This document shows, in pieces, positions 4,376-30,054 of a stretch of DNA of 55,731 nucleotides. The notes below the pieces were generated by a model. That model saw nothing but the letters and a program-made list of their open reading frames with translations, was not told the origin of the DNA and searched no databases. The position numbers and the translations under genes are program-made. Source of the stretch: Lysobacterales bacterium. GTDB taxonomy: Bacteria > Pseudomonadota > Gammaproteobacteria > Xanthomonadales > SZUA-5. Positions within the stretch are counted from its first letter, which is position 1. Each line of letters starts with the position of its first letter. The stretch covers positions 29,130-84,860 of the forward strand of contig JALHMG010000024.1 of NCBI GenBank assembly GCA_022844135.1. Reading direction: 5' to 3'.

Positions 4376-7300
4376 CCACTCGACTATTCATCTCCACGGT
4401 CACGCATGAGTTCCTATCGTGCCGCATGCGCTTGTCGGAAGACTTGCGTTTTCCGGATGTGGTGGTTGAAACCCAGGAAAACATCGCCAAGCTGGCGGCC
4501 GGCCATTCGGTGCTGCTCAAACTGGATGACTACCTTAAGGATTGTCATGTCGTGATCCATTTGCTTGGCCAGCAGACCAGCAAGGATGGTCGCGCAGCCA
4601 GCAAAGATGCGGTCGAGGATTTGCTCGTTCGATATTCGGATCTTCCGGTGATCACTGGCTTGAGCGCGGACGAATTGCGCAGCTTGTCCTACACGCAGTG
4701 GGAAGCGTGGCTGGCCTACTATCACATCAAGCAGAGCCGACCAACGCTCAAGCTGGTCATCGCCACGCCGGCCAACGGATACACATCGGACGATGTGCCC
4801 GATGCGCAATCCGCGCTGACGCAGAAGCAATCACAGGCTTGGCACGCTCAGGAGTTGCGCCTACGTGGCCGCCATCCGGAAATCAGCTTTGCATCGGCCG
4901 AAGAGCTGTCCATCCAAATCCTGCGTGCGCTAAAGGACATCCTGCCGGCGCAACACCCCACGCAGCGCATCGCCCCCAGCCGGATCATCAACCGCCACAC
5001 CGCCGACGATTTCATCGGCCGCGAAACAGAACTCGCTGTGCTCGATGCCGCCTGGGCCGCGCGCGACACGGTGAACGTGCAGTGCGTGATCGCCTGGGGC
5101 GGCGTGGGCAAGACCGCGTTGCTGGCCCGTTGGGTGCAAACGCGCTTTCGCGATCGCGGCTGGAAAAATGACGAAGATCACCCGGATCCCATCCATTACT
5201 TTGACTGGACCTTCTACGACCAAGGCACGCGAGCCGACGACGCCACGCAGGCCGGCGCGGCCAGCGTCGGCACCTTCTTTGTCGAAGCGCTGCGCCACTT
5301 CGGTGACCCTGAGCCGAACCTGCCCGAACGCAAAGCCGAACGCCTCGCGACACTGGTGCAAGCGCATCGATCCTTGCTGGTGCTCGATGGCCTGGAGCCT
5401 CTGCAATACCCTCACAACCACCCGCAAGCCGGACAAATCACCGACCCCGATCTGGCCCAGTTGCTGCGTATCCTCGCGCAGAGAAATCCCGGTTTGTGCC
5501 TAGTCTCTAGCCGCGTGGGCCTGAGCGAGCTGCGCGGCCATTTGACCAGCAACGCCACGCACCACGAATTGGACGATCTCTCCCCCGCAGCCGCCATTGC
5601 CCTGCTGCGCAAGCTGGACGTCACCGGCAGCGACGTTGATCTTGCCCAAGCCGCCGAGGATTACCAGCACCATGCCTTGAGCCTTATCCTGCTTGGGCAA
5701 TTCTTGGCGACCGCACGCGGCGGCGATATTCGCCAACGCGACACGATCAGCTTCGAAAAAGCCAACGACAAGCGCGCGGCCCACGCCCGAAGTGCTTGGC
5801 ATGTGTTGGAAATGTACGAGGCTTGGCTCGCCAGTCCCGGCGGTAACCCCATCGACTTGCAAGCGCTGCGGCTGATTGGACTGTTCGACCGACCAGCCAG
5901 TCCAGACTGCCTGGAGGCATTGCGGCGCGAGCCCGCTATCGCAGGCTTGACCGATCTCCTCGTTCCGCTGGACCGTGATGACTGGAACGCACTGCTCCAG
6001 CGCCTGCATAAAGCGCATTTGGTCCAGCTAAAACTGCCACCGCGTGATCCTGACAGTCAGGCACCGTATCCAGAGCCGCGCAGTGTTCCGGTCGATGCTC
6101 ATCCCTTAGTGAGGGAGTATTTTGCGAAGCAGCTCCGAAACAAGGAACCGGACGGTTTTGCCGCCGCGCATTCTCGGTTGTTTGACTACTTGTGTCACAG
6201 CACGCCGTATCGACCTGACACACTGGAGGACATGCAGCCCCTGTATCAGGCGGTAGTGCATGGATGTTTGGCCAGGCGGCAGCAGGAGGCATGCATTAAG
6301 GTCTACCGCGACCGCATCCTTCGCGGTACGGAAGACGACGGTTTTTTTAGCACGAAAAGACTTGGTGCCTACGGCGAGGATCTCGCTGCCGTGGCTGCGT
6401 TCTTCAAGCAGCCTTGGCGCCACGTCGAACAGGTGCTGGATCGTGAGCATCAGTGCTGGCTACTGAACCTTGCGGCACTTCGCTTGCGCTCGTTGGGGCG
6501 ACTCGCCGAAGCGATCGAGCCGACAAAAGCTAGTTTGGCCTTGCATCTTGAGGATGCAAACTGGGATGAAGCTGCTCGCAGCGCGGGCAATCTTAGCGAG
6601 CTGGAGCTGGAACTCGGAGAACTGGAAGCCGCCATTGCGACCGCGCGTGTGGCCACAGAGTACGCCGACCGGATCGACCCACCAGATTTGTTTCAGCGCA
6701 GCGCCAGACGCACCGTGTTGGCTTATGCACTGCATAACAGACGGAGTCTGCAGCCAAGCCTGGATTCTTCTGCCGATGCAGCACGGTTTCTGTTTCTGGA
6801 AGCCGAGACAATCGAATCTAAGCGTAATCCAGAGTTGCCCCTACTCCCATCCTTGCGAGGGTTCAAGTTCTGCGACCTGATCCTGGCTCCGGCGGAACGC
6901 GTGGCATGGCAGCAGGCGCTATCCATGACCCATCGCGCGCTCCCCATGATCGATTCAGCACTCGCTGAAGCCCAAGATCGAGCCGAGAAGGTCATCGAAC
7001 GCGCCCGAAGCACGGCAAATCTCCTCGACATCGCTATCGACCTCCTGACCCAGGCCCGCGTCGCGCTCTACCGCGCGATGCTGTACCCCGCGTTGTCCGC
7101 CGCGCCCGCGCTGCACGCCGCGACTACCGCTTTGGCCGCAATGCGCAAGGCTCAAGTCGCAGTCTTTCGTCCGCTTGCACTGTTGACAGGCGCGACGGCC
7201 CATCACCTCACTGGTGACAGTACCAGTGCCAGTGCCCTTTTAGATGAAGCCCAACACATCGCCGAACGCGGCCCGATGCCGCTGTATTTGGCGGACGTCA

Positions 7301-7476
7301 ACCTACACCGCGCCCGCCTCGTGGGAGTCCTTCCGCCAAAACAGCGTGCCGAGCACTGGCCCGGCGTCGACCCCAAATCCGAACTCGGCAAAGCCCGCGC
7401 CCTGATTGAAAAGCACGGTTATTGGCGCCGTCGCGAGGAACTCGCGGACGCCGAAGAAGCCGCGAAGAACTGGTAA
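4372..7476 (+). CDS. DUF4062 - STAND NTPase - TPR-like protein
   Basis: A 1034-residue multidomain protein. Residues 1 to about 130 match the DUF4062 pattern (TRLFISTVTHEFLSCR..., then a Rossmann-like strand VVIHLLG). A STAND-type ATPase follows, with FIGRE at its start, Walker A GGVGKTALL near 243-251 and Walker B LLVLDGLEPLQ near 335-345. The C-terminal third is alpha-helical and TPR-like (LGRLAEAIEPTKASL, ELELGELEAAIATA). STAND proteins are signal-activated oligomerising switches; DUF4062 is often their N-terminal effector or adaptor. ATG 4372 was preferred over GTG 4354 because it begins exactly at the conserved TRLFIS strand and overlaps the stop of the TIR remnant. The gap to the next TIR-STAND gene is 95 bp. 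Confidence 0.85.
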   Translation: MTTRLFISTVTHEFLSCRMRLSEDLRFPDVVVETQENIAKLAAGHSVLLKLDDYLKDCHVVIHLLGQQTSKDGRAASKDAVEDLLVRYSDLPVITGLSADELRSLSYTQWEAWLAYYHIKQSRPTLKLVIATPANGYTSDDVPDAQSALTQKQSQAWHAQELRLRGRHPEISFASAEELSIQILRALKDILPAQHPTQRIAPSRIINRHTADDFIGRETELAVLDAAWAARDTVNVQCVIAWGGVGKTALLARWVQTRFRDRGWKNDEDHPDPIHYFDWTFYDQGTRADDATQAGAASVGTFFVEALRHFGDPEPNLPERKAERLATLVQAHRSLLVLDGLEPLQYPHNHPQAGQITDPDLAQLLRILAQRNPGLCLVSSRVGLSELRGHLTSNATHHELDDLSPAAAIALLRKLDVTGSDVDLAQAAEDYQHHALSLILLGQFLATARGGDIRQRDTISFEKANDKRAAHARSAWHVLEMYEAWLASPGGNPIDLQALRLIGLFDRPASPDCLEALRREPAIAGLTDLLVPLDRDDWNALLQRLHKAHLVQLKLPPRDPDSQAPYPEPRSVPVDAHPLVREYFAKQLRNKEPDGFAAAHSRLFDYLCHSTPYRPDTLEDMQPLYQAVVHGCLARRQQEACIKVYRDRILRGTEDDGFFSTKRLGAYGEDLAAVAAFFKQPWRHVEQVLDREHQCWLLNLAALRLRSLGRLAEAIEPTKASLALHLEDANWDEAARSAGNLSELELELGELEAAIATARVATEYADRIDPPDLFQRSARRTVLAYALHNRRSLQPSLDSSADAARFLFLEAETIESKRNPELPLLPSLRGFKFCDLILAPAERVAWQQALSMTHRALPMIDSALAEAQDRAEKVIERARSTANLLDIAIDLLTQARVALYRAMLYPALSAAPALHAATTALAAMRKAQVAVFRPLALLTGATAHHLTGDSTSASALLDEAQHIAERGPMPLYLADVNLHRARLVGVLPPKQRAEHWPGVDPKSELGKARALIEKHGYWRRREELADAEEAAKNW

Positions 7477-7571
7477 TGCTCATGCCCGAATCCCGCCGCC
7501 GATTCCCGTCAACATTCTCGAACCAGCTTGCTGTTCCGGTTCCGGCTGCCACCATTTTCTGAGCACTCCCC

Positions 7572-10500
7572 ATGACCCAACTCTTCATCAGCCACTCCAG
7601 CCGCAACAACGCCGAAGCCCTCGCGCTCAGCCAATGGCTGACTCAAGAAGGCTGGGACGACCAGTTTCTGGACCTTGATCCGCAGCGGGGGATCACCGCG
7701 GGCGAGCGTTGGGAAAAGGCGCTGCATCAGGCGGCGGGCCGTTGTGATGCGGTGTTGTTTCTGATCAGCCCCGACTGGCTGGCCTCTGAATGGTGTCGGC
7801 GTGAGTTCACCATTGCGCAGCAGCTCGGGAAACGGCTGTTTGTGCTGCTGATCGGCGCCGCGCGTGCGGATATTCCGGCGCACATTAAGCAGAGTTGGCA
7901 GGTCGTCGATCTGGCCGGCGGCGACGATCACGGCGCGGCGCGGGAGGTCACGTTGCCAGGGGAAACGCAGCCGCGCTTTGTCTACTTTTCGCGGTCTGGC
8001 CTGGCGCGCCTGCGCGAAGGGCTGAAGAAAGCGGGACTGGATCCTGCGAGCTTCCCGTGGCCGCCGGCCGATCAGCCCAACCGTCCACCGTACTGCGGAT
8101 TGCGCCCGCTGGAAGCGGAGGATGCTGGCATCTTCTTCGGTCGCGAAGCACCCATCATCGAAATGCTGGCGCAATTGCGTGGCTTGCGGGATGCGGCACC
8201 GCCGCGTTTTCTGGCAATCCTTGGCGCTTCCGGCGCGGGCAAGTCCTCTTTCCTGCGCGCCGGCATCCTGCCGCGTTTGGCGCGAGATGATCGCCACTAC
8301 TTGACGCTGCCGGTCATCCGCCCTGAGCGCGCGGTGCTGAGTGGCAGTAGCGGTCTCCTCGCCAGCCTCTGGACCGTTCGCCAGAAGCGCGGGCTGAGCT
8401 GGAGCCGCAAACAACTGGAGCAAGCGATAGAGATCGGCGCGTCCGCACTGGCGCCGCTTTTAGCCGAACTGGCGCGCAGCGGCAGCTTGCCGGACTGGGA
8501 AGGCCGCGAAGCACAAGCGCCAACGCTGGTGCTAGCCATCGATCAAGCGGAGGAGCTGTTTCAGTCTGAAGGTGGCGAAGAGGCAATGCGTTTTCTGGCG
8601 CTGCTCGCCGAACTGCTTCAGACAGATTCGCCGCAAATACAAGTCTTGTGCACAATTCGCTCTGACAGTTACGAACACCTACAAAGCGCACCAGCGCTGC
8701 TCGCTGTGTCGCAAAAGACCTTCAGTCTGCCGCCACTGCCCAAAGGCGCCTACCGGCAAGTGATCGAAGCTCCGGTCGCGATCCTCAAACACAGCACGCG
8801 CCCGCTGAAGATCGAAGCAAAGCTGACCGATGCCTTGCTCACCGACATCGAGCAAGGCGGTGCCAAGGACGCGCTTCCGCTGCTGGCCTTCACATTGGAA
8901 CGGCTTTACCTGCATTACAGCGCCGAGGGCCAATTGCTGCTGCGGGAATACGAAGACCTCGGCCGCATCGCCGGTGCCATTGAGACCGCTGTGGACTTGG
9001 CACTGCAGGCTGCACAAAAGAACCCCAAGCTGCCGCAAGACAGGGATCAGTGCCTGAAACTGCTGCGCCGCGGCCTGATCCCGTGGATGGCCGGCATCGA
9101 TCCGCGCACCAACCTGCCATACCGCAAAGTCGCGCGACTAGCCCAAGTGCCCGAAGAAGCCCGCGCGCTGATCGAGCACTTTGTTGAACATCGCCTGTTG
9201 GCCAAAGACACCAATGAACAAGGCGAGATCACGGTCGAGCCCGCCCACGAAGCGCTGCTGCGGCAATGGACCAAGCTGCGCGGCTGGCTGGAAGAAGACA
9301 CCGCCGCGCTGGCGGCGCTTGAATCGGTCAAGGCCGCCAGCCGCGATTGGGACGCCAATGCCAAAGACCCGGAATGGCTGATCCACGCCGCCGGGCGGTT
9401 GGAAGACGCGGAGGCGCTGCATCAGCGAACGGATTTGGCGGCAAATTTTGACGACAGTGATCGCAGCTATTTGGCGCAATGTCGGAAGCTGGAGGACGAA
9501 CGGCGGGATCGGGAGCTGCGGCAGGCTCGGGAGCTGGCGGAACAGCGAGCACGGACAGTGAACCGGACTCGCGCAGGTTTGATCGTAGCCAGTGCTCTCT
9601 TGGTGATTGCAGGCGCGGCGGGGCTGTTGGCTTGGAAAGCTCAGAAGCGCGCTGAGAAAGAAACGTTGCGCGCACAAGCGGGATTGAGAACAGCCGCAGA
9701 ACGGGCGCTCGGGCGGGCGCGCGAGCAATTCGATCTGGGCGAGCGCGATAACTACTCAGCTTATCTGGCGGAATCGCTAGGCTTTGTCTCCACTCTTGCC
9801 GCAAATGACGCTGCCCTGACGGCTCAGCAAAGCCCGTCAGCAAGGCTTGACGCAGTGCTTGCACACCAAGGCGCTGTGATCAGCGCCGCCTTTAGCCCCG
9901 ACGGCACCCGCGTGGTGACGGTAAGCCAGGATGGCACCGCGTTTTGGGACGCACAGAGCGGCCAAGCGCTCGGCGCCCCGCTCAAGCACGAGAACCGAGT
10001 CTCGACAGCAGCGTTTAGCCCAGACGGCAAGCGTGTGGTGACGGCAAGCTGGGACAACACCGCGCGCATCTGGGACGCGCAGAGTGGCCAAGCGCTCGGC
10101 ACCCCGCTCAAGCACGAGGGCCGGGTCTCCTCCGCCGCCTTCAGCCCCGACGGCACGCGCGTGGTGACGGCGAGCCTTGATGGAACTGCGCGCACCTGGG
10201 ACGCGCAGAGCGGCCAAGCGCTCGGCGCCCCGCTCAAGCACGAGAACGCGGTCTACTCCGCCGCCTTCAGCTCTGACGGCACGCGCGTGGTGACGGCAAG
10301 CTGGGACAACACCGCGCGCATCTGGGACGCGCAGAGCGGCCAAGCGCTAGTCGCCCCGCTCAAGCACGAGAACGCGGTCTTCTCCGCCGCCTTCAGCCCC
10401 GACGGCACGCGCGTCGTGACGGCAAGTGAGGACAACACCGCGCGCCTGTGGGACGCGCAGAGCGGCCAAGCGCTGGTCGCCCCGCTCAAGCACGAGCGGT

Positions 10501-23130: not shown

Positions 23131-24879
23131 TCAGTGCTCCTGCTGCTGGAGCCAAGCTTGGATCGCGCTCATTTGCGGCGTCGGCATCGACGGGAATGGA
23201 GACAGCGACCGATTGGCCACTGCCCATGCATAATCCGTCAGGAGGAAAGGCGCAAATGTCGCTGGCGACGTAAATTGTGGAAAGTACACCGGATCAGTGT
23301 AGCGCTGGATCGGCGAGGTGTAGTAAGGCGGGTAGATCGCACCGGGGCCGGTGGTGAATGCCAGCCACGACGGCAGTTCGTTTTGTTGCGGCGGGCCAGG
23401 CTGGACCTGCGCCACGCTGTGGCAGCTCATGCAGTTCGACGAGAGTCCCGCCGGGATCCCCGACGATGTTTCCAGATATGGATTGAAGCAAATCGTGCGA
23501 TTGGCCGAGTTCGCGGGAGTTGTCTCCGAAAATCCCGTGCACATGGCGTAGTTGTTCCAAGGCGATGGTAGCGAGTCCGGCTGATCCGCCTTTGAGCCCG
23601 GATAACGGTTCGGCGTCTCGCCTGGTTGCCAGTAGTAGGTCTGCCACGTCCATTGCGGAGTTTCTTTAGTGGTGACGTGCATGCCGAAGAGCACCGCGTA
23701 ATCGCCGGGTAGGGCAGTAGTGCCGAGCGGATTGCTGCCCGTTTCGTTCGTTGCGCTATTGAACTCTTTTGCTTCGTTCGCGGTCATTTGAAAGCTGTAA
23801 AGCTCTGAAAGCAGGCCCCAGCTATACGTCTGGCAGCCGTAAGTCAGCGTTCCTTTCGGGAAAGTGCCGGGGTTCGGCACCCCGGCTGGTACTTCACGCT
23901 TGTTGCCCTGGATCACCACACAAGTTTTCCACGTATTGGGGATCGGCGCGTAGAAGGCCGTCGAGTTCGCGGGACCTTGCCATACCGGCAGCACGGTGAA
24001 ACCCTCTTTCTTGACCACCCCCATCACCGGTTTGGTCGAGATCGCGCCTGCGGGAAAACCGCGGGGGTTCCGCGCTTGGGGCCCGGCAGGAATCTCTGGA
24101 TTGACGGTAATCCCATTGGGCGGCGATTCGCTGAGAGCTATATTCACAGCGTAAAACGCGTAGGCCAGAGCCATCAAGTCGTTCGCATTTCTCAGACAAT
24201 AGGTCTGGCTCGGAAACGGGGGCAACTTCGCGGGCACGGTTGGACCTCCCACGGGCGTATTGACATAGGTGGCATAGTCACCGTTGAATTTATTGAACGA
24301 GAAGACACGCAATCCGGAAGCGCTCCGGTTCGTGGATGTTGCGGTTGTTGCATCCGCCCCCACTCGCTGCCGGCGCCCGTGCGAGAACTGATTCGGGTCT
24401 ATAAAGGCACGTAAGGTCGTCCGGGGACGCGCGGCCATTTCCACAAGCGTTTCGGAACTGCATCCTGGATTGAGATTGGTGGGGAACAATTCGTTCGCAC
24501 CCCACCACGTCTCCCAAATCGGCAGGTTGATATGGCCACTGAATGTGGGGTACATCACGCCGCTGGGCGAAGTCATCGCCTGCCACAAGGCCCAAGCGCG
24601 TTGACGGATCGCGACTTGGTTGTCTTCGGCGATCCACCGTTCAATTGTGCTCTGCGGCAGCGGAAACTGGAAGTCCGGCGGAAACCCGTGCGGCGAAACG
24701 GGGGGCTGCGCCTGCGCGGGCGCGGCTGCGAAAGCGGCGGCGGAGAAGACTGCGGCGGCGGAGAATTGAGCGATTTTCAGGACGCGCACTCCGATGAGGT
24801 AAAAAACAGAGTTCCCGGATTCTGCTGGGGAATCGGTGTACTGCGGCTCGGCGTGGCCTTTTTGCAAAGTGATGTTCAC
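23131..24879 (-). CDS. Exported protein with one c-type haem motif
   Basis: A 582-residue protein. GTG 24879 follows AAGGAG with 6-nt spacing. After about 30 residues there is a signal-peptide-like segment (LKIAQFSAAAVFSAAAFAAA with APAQAQ cleavage region). Near residue 490 a single CMSCH motif (CXXCH) indicates covalent haem attachment in the periplasm. The rest, about 450 residues rich in Trp, Pro and Asn, is not recognised. The gene is on the same strand as the LodA/LodB pair, so it could serve as an electron-transfer or partner protein, but a hairpin array and a regulator remnant lie between. An internal GTG at 24789, directly before the signal peptide, is an alternative start without a well-placed ribosome site. 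Confidence 0.75.
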   Translation of the reverse strand: MNITLQKGHAEPQYTDSPAESGNSVFYLIGVRVLKIAQFSAAAVFSAAAFAAAPAQAQPPVSPHGFPPDFQFPLPQSTIERWIAEDNQVAIRQRAWALWQAMTSPSGVMYPTFSGHINLPIWETWWGANELFPTNLNPGCSSETLVEMAARPRTTLRAFIDPNQFSHGRRQRVGADATTATSTNRSASGLRVFSFNKFNGDYATYVNTPVGGPTVPAKLPPFPSQTYCLRNANDLMALAYAFYAVNIALSESPPNGITVNPEIPAGPQARNPRGFPAGAISTKPVMGVVKKEGFTVLPVWQGPANSTAFYAPIPNTWKTCVVIQGNKREVPAGVPNPGTFPKGTLTYGCQTYSWGLLSELYSFQMTANEAKEFNSATNETGSNPLGTTALPGDYAVLFGMHVTTKETPQWTWQTYYWQPGETPNRYPGSKADQPDSLPSPWNNYAMCTGFSETTPANSANRTICFNPYLETSSGIPAGLSSNCMSCHSVAQVQPGPPQQNELPSWLAFTTGPGAIYPPYYTSPIQRYTDPVYFPQFTSPATFAPFLLTDYAWAVANRSLSPFPSMPTPQMSAIQAWLQQQEH

Positions 24880-26925: not shown

Positions 26926-29838
26926 TCAGAACTTCTGTCGACGGCGCCTTCCCAACGCGTTTATCTCGGGGCCCGGGTTGTCCACGCTGCCGATCAGCGT
27001 GTGCCGATCTTCCACTTGCATGGTTGCGGGGAACGCCTTCTTGCCGGCGGCATCGGTCGGGCCGGGCAGGGTTTCGAGCACACCCATGTGATCGAAATGC
27101 TTGATCATCCTGTCGATCTGTTTGATTTGGCCGACGGCGACGACGGTGTCGGTATCGCCCAAAGGCGCGTCCCAATCCGCGCGCTGCGCAAAGGCGGCAA
27201 GCCGTGTGGGCATGTCCTTGTCGGCGTCCACGACAATGGCGTAGTTCTCCTTCGTCAAAACCTGATTTGGCACTCGGGCAGGCCAGAAGGTTGGCAGATA
27301 GGGATCGTAGCTGGGAATGTAGCCCGAACGGCAGCTCGCCGTATCCGCTTGCCAGGGTACGGCCATCCAGCGCGAGATTCCCCCAGGAATTTGCGCAAGC
27401 ATTGGTCCGACAGTGTCGGTGGAGATCATCATCGAGCTCGGAGTCAGCAACGGGCCCGGACTTGGTTCGACCGACCCCTCTGGCGCCTGGGCGAAGGTGA
27501 AGGGTGCCGAGTACATCGTCTGGCTGCGTACCGGCCAGGTCATCTCGCAGCCTGGATGGAACGCGTCGGCAAGGCAATGGTCGAGCGCCGCGCGCGTCAG
27601 CACGGCGCCTTGCTCACGTAGCGGGACCTCGTCGATGTCGGCGTATTCGGGAACTTTGCCCCAATCGTCGACGAACATGCCGTTCACCCACTGCGACAAG
27701 ATTTTGAACTGAGTGGCCGTCAGCTGCGTGTAGATATAGGTCGAGTTCGGCATGGGGAGGTTCATCGCGTCCCCGAAGATCCATGGCCATGGCGCTGGCG
27801 ATGTGGAGTCCTTGGCGGAATTGCGGAACGAGTTCATCAACACGCGTCGGCGCTCCTTATTGCCGGGCGAACCGTCGCGCAAGCGGTCAATCCACGCTTG
27901 GCTGGTGAAGTCGTTGCCCGAGTTCCAACCGAATCCCGCAGCGAAGCCCGCGTTGGCCCACTGTAAGCGCGAGAGCCGCTCAAAGATCGGATAGATATCG
28001 TTGGTGAACGACGGCATCGTCGGCGCGGGCAAGGTGCTATTCCGGATCGCGAGGTCCCGCATCAGATCCCACATCGTGCGAACCGACTTGAGCTGGGGCC
28101 CGTAATTAGGCGGCGCCACCACCACCCAAGCACCGGTCACGGGCAGGGATACGCCGTCGAGTTCCACCGTCGCGGTGACCGGGCCATCGGACGTGTCGTC
28201 GTGCCAACCGTCGTTGTTGGCGAAGGTTCCGATCGGGCTGCCGTTTCCGGAGGCCGAGACGCCGTAGCCGCCGCGGACCAGAAGGCGGCCGTCGTCTTCG
28301 CACCACATGGCGCCGAGATTGACCCGCTCGCCTTGGTTCATGAACCGTCCAGCGAGAAATTCCTTGCGCTGCGGCCCGCTGCCGTACCGCACGGTCTGAA
28401 GGCCAGCGTCGAGCACCAGCGAATCCCGTTCGGTAACGTTCGCGTTGCGCAAAGCGCTGGGGTCGGCTGTGGCGACCGCGTCCGGCGGAAGGTCGAGGGC
28501 GATTTGGAACTGATACCAAGCGGCTTTCCGGTTGGCGACGTGCACAGACCAGGCGATCTTCGCCTTGCTGCCCGTGGCGGAGAGTTCGCGCACGATCGTG
28601 CCATTGATGTTGACGCCGTAAAGTCGAAAGCGGGCCACTTGCGGCAGCAACCGGCCTTGTTCGTCACGATAGGGGCTGCGGCCGCGGTTGGCCGTCTTCG
28701 GTGGCGGATTCACCACTTCAGGACCGATGATATAGCCGTCCGGCGCATTACCGATCCGCGCGATTCCGATCGACGGATACACGACGGCGCGGACGATGCA
28801 ATCGTCTTCGTCGTGTGACGCCGCAGCGGTCCGAGGGCATTTGGGTTGGTCCTGCGGCTGGCCGTTGGCTTGGTGGCGCAAGCGCGCGCTGTTTGCGTAA
28901 ACGACTTTGCGTGCTTCGGCGATGCTTCCCCGTGGCGTCTGCGCGACCGGAGTTCGCCAGATGTTGAACGCCAACAGATCCCCGTACGCCGACTGGCCTT
29001 GCGCGGTCACGTCCTGGCGCGACACCTCGAGCGTCGCCACGGGCACATAAGGGTACTTCTCGGTCGACCATTCCTCGTCCGCTTGTTCCAGCGGCGGATG
29101 GTCCTTGCGCGGAACCGCCTGTACCATGAACAAGAATCGATAGGGTGCGGCCGCCAGGCGGCGCGCCAGATCGGCGCCGAGATAGTCCGGGTTGTTGGTG
29201 CCGATATTCACTGTCGGCGCGTCGGTCGGCAGGGGGGCGGGGACCAGCGAATAGCGGGCGTAGTGGTCCGGCCCGAAGTCGAACGGAAGCACCGCCCAAT
29301 AGCGTTGCGTCAAAAGGCTCCCGGTGATCGTGTTGGCCATGCCATCGAAGACTTGTTTGGCCCGCGGATGCGCGTCGAAATACGCGGCCAGGGAGCCGTT
29401 GACGGCGGCGTAGTTGATCGCGACCGCTTCTTCGGCATTGGGACTGAAGAACACGGGATAGTTCTGCATGATGAAGTCGGCGATGCCGTCGGACTCGCCG
29501 AGCGCGTTGGGACCGTCCACGCCCCACAGTTTGATGGCGATCCCCAAGGCGGTTGCTGGTGTGTCGCCGGAGAAGCGCATCCACGCTTTGAGCTCCTTGT
29601 GGGCGAACACGCCGATCTTCATCCACCCCGGAATGCCTGGGAGTGTCTTCAGCGTGCCGTAGGCGGCACCGTGTTGCTTCGCGAAAGCGCCTCGCGGCGC
29701 AGGGGGCGGTCCGTTTGCGATTGTCTGGGCCTGCCCGCTCGTCACAAAGAGTTCGTTCAATCGCTCGGTTGCTTGCGATTTCTTCGCGAAGCAGGGCGGC
29801 GGCGTTATGGCCGCGTTCGTTTCGGTTTTCTTGGCCAT
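26926..29838 (-). CDS. LodA-like CTQ-dependent oxidase fused to an N-terminal catalase-like domain
   Basis: A 970-residue protein. Residues about 345-965 match the LodA/GoxA quinoprotein amino-acid oxidases (YPSIGIARIGNAP, LDHCLADAFHPGCEMTW, PTFWPARVPNQVL). The expected cofactor pair is present: Cys764 in PGCEM and Trp829 in AVPWQ, 65 apart as for Cys516-Trp581 of LodA. Such enzymes oxidatively deaminate amino acids and release H2O2. Residues about 45-330 resemble a catalase-type haem fold: His56 (KQHGAAYG), Asn126 (MQNYPVFF) and the proximal R-x3-Y (Arg310, Tyr314 in ARKVVY). ATG 29838 was chosen over TTG 29853. No export signal is seen. It precedes the lodB-like gene. The catalase assignment is less certain than LodA. 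Confidence 0.88.
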   Translation of the reverse strand: MAKKTETNAAITPPPCFAKKSQATERLNELFVTSGQAQTIANGPPPAPRGAFAKQHGAAYGTLKTLPGIPGWMKIGVFAHKELKAWMRFSGDTPATALGIAIKLWGVDGPNALGESDGIADFIMQNYPVFFSPNAEEAVAINYAAVNGSLAAYFDAHPRAKQVFDGMANTITGSLLTQRYWAVLPFDFGPDHYARYSLVPAPLPTDAPTVNIGTNNPDYLGADLARRLAAAPYRFLFMVQAVPRKDHPPLEQADEEWSTEKYPYVPVATLEVSRQDVTAQGQSAYGDLLAFNIWRTPVAQTPRGSIAEARKVVYANSARLRHQANGQPQDQPKCPRTAAASHDEDDCIVRAVVYPSIGIARIGNAPDGYIIGPEVVNPPPKTANRGRSPYRDEQGRLLPQVARFRLYGVNINGTIVRELSATGSKAKIAWSVHVANRKAAWYQFQIALDLPPDAVATADPSALRNANVTERDSLVLDAGLQTVRYGSGPQRKEFLAGRFMNQGERVNLGAMWCEDDGRLLVRGGYGVSASGNGSPIGTFANNDGWHDDTSDGPVTATVELDGVSLPVTGAWVVVAPPNYGPQLKSVRTMWDLMRDLAIRNSTLPAPTMPSFTNDIYPIFERLSRLQWANAGFAAGFGWNSGNDFTSQAWIDRLRDGSPGNKERRRVLMNSFRNSAKDSTSPAPWPWIFGDAMNLPMPNSTYIYTQLTATQFKILSQWVNGMFVDDWGKVPEYADIDEVPLREQGAVLTRAALDHCLADAFHPGCEMTWPVRSQTMYSAPFTFAQAPEGSVEPSPGPLLTPSSMMISTDTVGPMLAQIPGGISRWMAVPWQADTASCRSGYIPSYDPYLPTFWPARVPNQVLTKENYAIVVDADKDMPTRLAAFAQRADWDAPLGDTDTVVAVGQIKQIDRMIKHFDHMGVLETLPGPTDAAGKKAFPATMQVEDRHTLIGSVDNPGPEINALGRRRRQKF

Positions 29839-30054
29839 GGCGTGATCTCTCAAAAGCGCAACATCAGGGTTTTAGGTTGCCGATTCGTCTAATAAATCAG
29901 GGAGGTAGACAGGAGGCGTTCAAACGAGCGCGCGTCTTCCCCTGATCGGGCCAGAGGCAGAGCACCAGGCGCGCCTTTTGCCAAGGTTTCTTTTGAAGTT
30001 CTCATTGTCATGGTTGACTCGAGCTTGCGTGGTTCCAGAACGGTATCAAGTTAG

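Follow-up and report, generated by a model that had tools for sequence, protein, structure and literature searches.

A fused oxidase gene and its neighbors

The window, by which we mean the whole 55,731-nucleotide stretch of DNA analyzed, holds at positions 26926 to 29838 one open frame of 970 amino acids, on the minus strand (Table 1), and the fused oxidase frame of the original prediction is therefore real. An alternative TTG start at 29853 would lengthen the product by 5 amino acids. The gene downstream encodes a 366-amino-acid flavoprotein (P0002) that matched the GoxB model at 2.3e-68 and the LodB model at 8.9e-61, with both scores below the curated cut-offs. This protein supplies the adjoining LodB-type flavoprotein by which members of the LodA/GoxA family are recognized, and a LodB-type gene was the same-strand neighbor at 83 of the 84 fused loci examined.

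The host genome contains KatG, and no protein in it scored above the Pfam catalase cut-off. Since KatG is present, peroxide disposal in the host is independent of the fused gene. Elsewhere on the minus strand of the window (23131 to 24879) lies a gene for a CxxCH protein of ~557 to 582 amino acids without a Pfam match. It matched phrog_19967 at 4.9e-25 and had relatives in 2 of 100 other related genomes; a weak relative precedes the fused gene at the Hoeflea locus L053.

Table 1. Positions in the window of the fused gene, its domains and key residues, and the adjoining maturase gene
Feature	Position	Strand	Basis or remark
Fused gene, 970 aa	26926..29838	-	ATG start at 29838
Residues 1-340, catalase-fold, predicted heme b domain	28819..29838	-	phmmer, family profile, predicted structure
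Residues 346-970, LodA/GoxA-type CTQ oxidase domain	26929..28803	-	Pfam, equivalog models, structure match
LodB/GoxB-type flavoprotein maturase, 366 aa	25818..26918	-	7 bases downstream of fused gene
Cys836, predicted CTQ Cys (LodA Cys516)	27331..27333	-	Alignment; 106/106 rows
Trp852, predicted CTQ Trp (LodA Trp581)	27283..27285	-	Alignment; 106/106 rows
Asp832, active-site Asp (LodA Asp512, GoxA Asp678)	27343..27345	-	Alignment
Phe52, catalase distal-His position	29683..29685	-	R-x-x-[H/F]-x-K anchor; 86/86
His56, four residues past catalase His position	29671..29673	-	86/86 clade, 23/29 stand-alone relatives
Asp92, Val position of catalase RFSxV (channel constriction)	29563..29565	-	86/86
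Gln125, catalase distal-Asn position	29464..29466	-	86/86
Arg310-x3-Tyr314, predicted proximal heme ligand motif	28897..28911	-	Invariant

The C-terminal domain is a LodA/GoxA-type oxidase

The assignment of residues 345 to 970 to the LodA family was confirmed by Pfam, with LodA_N matching residues 354 to 574 (4.9e-72; 242.8 bits against a cut-off of 26.3) and LodA_C matching residues 704 to 852 (4.4e-38; 130.8 bits against a cut-off of 25). The GoxA and LodA equivalog models scored 399.8 bits (1.5e-119) and 179.5 bits (1e-52), far below their NCBIfam cut-offs of 750 and 600, so the substrate of the oxidase cannot be read from its family. Residues 349 to 955 of the predicted structure matched GoxA at a Z score of 41.9 (559 residues; rmsd, 3.0) and LodA at 33.2, and the CTQ oxidase domain spans residues ~349 to 948. 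The fused protein has in common with GoxA, the glycine oxidase of P. luteoviolacea, and with LodA, a lysine 6-oxidase, the fold, the CTQ Cys and Trp, and the active-site Asp. Its His761 corresponds to His583 of GoxA, where LodA has Cys. GoxA and LodA lack a catalase domain and are 22 to 28% identical to the fused protein in structural alignments.

The CTQ residues of LodA are C516 and W581 (PMC4417212). They were mapped through an alignment with GoxA and a match of residues 352 to 840 to LodA residues 4 to 520. Asp512 and Cys516 of LodA lie within PWQADFFNC and Trp581 within YYSYWWPP; the fused protein has Asp832 and Cys836 within PWQADTASC and Trp852 within PTFWPA. All three residues were kept in every one of the 106 rows of the LodA-domain set. 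The original prediction had placed the cofactor at Cys764 and Trp829, 65 residues apart as in LodA. This pair was wrong and its spacing a coincidence: Cys764 aligns with an Ile of LodA (CPGIEMTW) and Trp829 with the Trp of the LodA PWQ motif, whereas the residues that align with the LodA CTQ pair, Cys836 and Trp852, are 16 apart. Cys764 was present in 104 of the 106 rows, with Val or Ile in the other two.

The N-terminal domain has a predicted catalase fold

When the N-terminal sequence (residues 1 to 357) was compared with Pfam by itself, no family was found at an E value of 0.01, and the catalase family gave a subthreshold match (E value, 0.12). Half of the A5 set (15 of 30 members) matched PF00199 at an E value of 0.01 or better. 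With the single sequence, phmmer found the Mycobacterium avium catalase-related protein (PDB 3e4w) at 8.6e-6; a profile of 30 relatives strengthened this match to 1.5e-14 and also reached true catalases, with E values from 7.2e-9 upward. The proposed HMM comparison with catalases thus failed for the single sequence and succeeded for the family profile.

Structure prediction gave a pLDDT of 83.8 and a pTM of 0.71 for the full-length protein and values of 88.5 and 0.88 for the N-terminal domain alone. In this part, the predicted structure best matched coral allene oxide synthase (1u5u; Z score, 27.0 over 282 residues; rmsd, 3.2), followed by the lipoxygenase fusion 3dy5 (26.9), M. avium 3e4y (26.2), and catalases (~25), with matches less than 1 Z unit apart treated as ties. 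These catalase-fold matches cover residues ~15 to 335, which have a catalase fold in the predicted model. The predicted catalase-like domain is thus upheld: the absence of any catalase-fold match, named beforehand as grounds for abandoning it, did not occur, and both the profile and the predicted structure match catalases. The M. avium protein, the closest by sequence of the solved structures, has the proximal R-x3-Y motif in common with the domain but keeps the His of RALHAKG where the fused proteins have Phe. In 1u5u and 3dy5, as here, a catalase-fold heme domain stands N-terminal to an oxygen-using enzyme; the coral partner is a lipoxygenase, whereas here it is a CTQ oxidase.

The heme cradle is conserved and the distal side is rebuilt

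The residue counts cover 86 domains: the split gene of genome G427 and the 85 fused rows, 81 of them distinct, that remained once we had set aside duplicates, L018 and L019 (both broken copies), and hits of <100 bits or <230 residues. The comparison sets were 12 true catalases and 29 stand-alone relatives. The latter, y4iL-like proteins, belong to the same domain family (profile comparison E value, 7.5e-81), and 23 of them are set apart from the fused clade by a long branch (1.3).

The residues of the heme cradle, Arg49, Arg88, Ser90, Arg310, Tyr314, and Arg321, were invariant in all 86 domains, and the proximal R-x3-Y had been correctly predicted. The distal side differed. Position 52 was Phe throughout the clade, His in all 12 catalases, and His (23), Gln (3), or Asn (3) in the stand-alone relatives. 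Position 92 was always Asp in the clade and never in the stand-alone relatives or the catalases, all 12 of which have Val. Position 125 was Gln in every clade domain and Asn in every catalase. In addition, a conserved Asp three residues before Gly99 was absent from all 86 domains, and the Phe seven residues after the FF motif was Met in 83. Of the features of a monofunctional heme catalase, the domain therefore has the fold and R-x3-Y and lacks the distal His and Asn. The same His-to-Phe change is found in a Foldseek match, 3hb6, titled "Inactive mutant H54F of Proteus mirabilis catalase."

The register of these positions follows from several comparisons. The distal motif reads R-x-x-H-A-K-G in catalases, R-[D/S]-[A/V]-H-x-K-x-H-G in the stand-alone relatives, and R-x-V-F-x-K-x-H-G in the fused clade. 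The catalase His position is therefore 52, and His56 corresponds to the later of the two His residues in the family motif, within the K-x-H-G part common to the stand-alone relatives and the clade. Since the profile alignment with true catalases (E value, 2e-11) begins only at residue 59, the register at position 52 depends on the R-x-x-[H/F]-x-K anchor, the bridging stand-alone relatives, and the end points of structural alignments, in which residue 45 of the model meets residue 121 of HPII and residue 75 of CATPO, placing 52 on His128 and His82 if there is no gap between. Residues R64, H67, Y353, and R360 of allene oxide synthase (PMC5617202) show the R+3 and Y+7 spacing seen here, which further supports the register. 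The catalase Asn, which stands five residues ahead of the last F in DLVGNNTPVFF, falls at 125. The catalase-type distal His and Asn that had been reported for this protein thus did not hold up; the candidate pair, His56 and Asn126, is conserved, yet the profile alignment with catalases rules it out.

Because the new distal residues are invariant, simple decay is argued against. Judged from these patterns of conservation, the clade and the catalases share the constraint on the heme-holding cradle but not that on the H2O2-splitting face. The domain probably binds heme and is probably not a catalase.

Distribution and history of the fusion

The fusion itself is not new. In 2015, 21 uncharacterized pfam00199-LodA fusions were tabulated as group III (PMC4417212, Table 3), so this architecture was already published, without a function, and the protein of the window is a further member. 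As in group III, the catalase-like domain is N-terminal to LodA in one chain; the length (963 to 1,072 amino acids in group III) and the adjoining lodB also agree, and nothing essential differs in these features. Two Azospirillum proteins of that table are among the closest hits. According to the same paper, the catalase fold is common to the group III domains, which are not necessarily catalases; its sections 6, 7, and 11 do not mention the distal replacements. A literature search, which most subscription journals lie outside, found no paper describing them, and it returned nothing on MAP-2744c.

The word "unusual," which the original prediction used of a self-detoxifying or H2O2-channeling oxidase, was also an overstatement in view of the 21 tabulated fusions and our own counts. 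Among the best 80 loci of one genome scan, ranked in a way that favors long or full-length matches, 75 were fused, 2 were unfused, and 3 (L036, L048, and L075) had no callable frame. When 398 genomes were sampled evenly across the phylum, 12 carried LodA_C (2 fused, 1 split into neighboring genes, and 9 neither), and 398 genomes of the order yielded 13 near-full-length oxidase-domain matches, 7 of them fused. Viral contigs gave four pattern hits and no relative.

All fused N-terminal domains and the one split gene formed a single clade (SH-aLRT, 100), and pairwise distances in the two domains were correlated (r = 0.94 for 81 distinct pairs, a value reached in 0 of 999 permutations). Both results fit one fusion event followed by joint inheritance; the trees were quick trees without bootstrap, and both carried long-branch warnings. 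In the C-domain tree, 19 of the 106 rows were unfused oxidases. Of these, some were nested among fused ones; the best-supported cases were Acidisphaera, with a value of 98, and Rhizobium paknamense, which falls within a set of 11 rows supported at 100. The fusion state changed at least nine times over the tree, a count that does not distinguish gain from loss. We read the nested oxidases as repeated loss of the domain plus one fission, that of G427. In that genome (L144, 3566 to 9108), lodA, lodB, and the catalase-like gene are separate and in tandem, and the last encodes 635 amino acids, ~300 of them past the catalase domain and without a Pfam match. Close oxidase-domain relatives without a catalase domain were found at L061, L070, L016, and L017. 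A tblastn search of 13 unfused loci with the N-terminal domain detected no remnant (best E value, 0.016).

The row closest by path to the fused protein of the window is that of Acidisphaera sp. S103, which has no catalase domain. The protein itself sits on a long branch in both trees (0.81 and 0.93), with alphaproteobacteria (Azospirillum and Acetobacteraceae) as its closest relatives; Dyella, in the same order, is represented by the identical L194 and L042. The alphaproteobacterial relatives and the long branch hint at horizontal transfer and fast change. Some loci have gene structures of other kinds. Fused-gene copies on plasmids of Sinorhizobium meliloti and S. medicae (L018 and L019) are broken into several frames, the N-terminal part at L102 is spread over two frames, and L204 (G760, 5866 to 9384) encodes a 1,172-residue LodA-type protein extended at its N terminus by something other than the catalase domain.

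Possible function of the fused protein

Our preferred reading, held tentatively and at somewhat less than even confidence, is that the protein combines a CTQ oxidase with a heme domain that is not a working catalase and that uses the peroxide generated in cis to carry out a different oxidation. One chain would then carry two catalytic sites. At the C-terminal site, an amine or amino acid oxidase whose Cys836-Trp852 CTQ would be matured by the adjoining LodB-like protein, substrate, O2, and water would give an aldehyde or oxo acid, NH3, and H2O2. The N-terminal site would hold heme b, with Tyr314 as the proximal ligand beside Arg310 and with Arg49, Arg88, and Arg321 for the propionates, under a rebuilt distal side of Phe52, Asp92, Gln125, and usually Met after the FF motif. 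Peroxide released in cis might be used there in a peroxidase- or peroxygenase-like reaction, in which a carboxylate, that of Asp92 or of the substrate, would stand in for the missing distal His. The narrower proposal, a self-fed, carboxylate-assisted, tyrosinate-ligated peroxygenase or peroxidase found across Pseudomonadota, Bacteroidota, Actinomycetota, Myxococcota, Acidobacteriota, and Cyanobacteriota, is conceivable and rather unlikely. Counting against our preferred reading, the close relatives without a catalase domain indicate that this domain is dispensable.

Conservation of the cradle is explained equally well by a noncatalytic heme or structural domain. A catalase fold, with heme or empty, might serve oligomerization, stability, or ligand sensing without turnover, an alternative that we rank second and consider possible but on the whole unlikely. 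It would fit the loss of the catalase distal His and Asn in all 86 domains and the oxidases that lack the domain, some nested among fused ones; the invariance of Phe52, Asp92, and Gln125, equal to that of the cradle, nevertheless suggests a selected pocket over a scaffold. The self-detoxifying oxidase of the original prediction, in which His56 or Asp92 would replace the distal His and H2O2 would be dismutated or reduced, now appears improbable. Fusion to a peroxide-making enzyme, the catalase fold, and the invariance of His56 in the clade speak for it, but replacement of both catalase distal residues throughout the clade and the title of 3hb6 disfavor catalase-type self-detoxification. Moreover, His56 is found in 23 of the 29 stand-alone relatives, most of them with a true distal His, and so is no fusion-specific replacement, and the host already has KatG.

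Rearrangement of an organic hydroperoxide, as by coral allene oxide synthase and without use of H2O2, is very unlikely even though 1u5u and 3dy5 are the top structural matches, within ~1 Z unit of catalases. The synthase keeps His67, Thr66, and Asn137 on its distal side (PMC5617202), where the clade has, by the R-x-x-H anchor, Phe52 and Val or Ala (Ala51 here), and also Gln125. LodA-type enzymes yield H2O2, not lipid hydroperoxides. The heme protein MauG helps to build TTQ, and the heme domain and CTQ maturase share one operon here, but a MauG-like part in building CTQ seems extremely improbable: unfused relatives without the catalase-like domain keep the CTQ residues (106 of 106 rows) and the adjoining lodB. 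Tyrosinate hemes have low potentials, and electron transfer from CTQ to heme, as in quinohemoprotein amine dehydrogenase, was considered unlikely for that reason.

With the distal site rewritten, what had been a loosely defined "catalase domain" becomes the subject of a precise claim open to testing: the clade's site appears to have all that is needed to hold heme and to lack everything with which catalases split H2O2. Engineers attempt to build oxidase-peroxygenase fusions. If the domain is active, as in our preferred reading, an oxidase and a peroxide-using heme site would be naturally joined in one chain; if it is inactive, the automatic "catalase" labels of these proteins would be wrong.

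Redox proteins beside the stand-alone relatives

The stand-alone relatives tend to have redox proteins as neighbors, a tendency seen in a hand-picked sample. The NGR234 plasmid protein of this set, taken to be y4iL (a name from PMC4417212), has a diheme cytochrome c peroxidase two genes downstream. A "peroxidase family protein" adjoins the relatives in Paracoccus yeei and Methylobacterium currus, and an FdhF/YdeP oxidoreductase lies next to those in Novosphingobium and Agrobacterium vitis; the Nostoc relative had no annotated peroxidase- or oxidoreductase-like neighbor. When six hand-chosen neighbors were compared with Pfam, two were weakly DyP-like (one domain above the cut-off and the others below) and four were RoxA-like diheme proteins. 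The RoxA-like proteins adjoin stand-alone catalase-family genes at L146, L147, L148, and L154, and the two proteins possibly form a functional pair.
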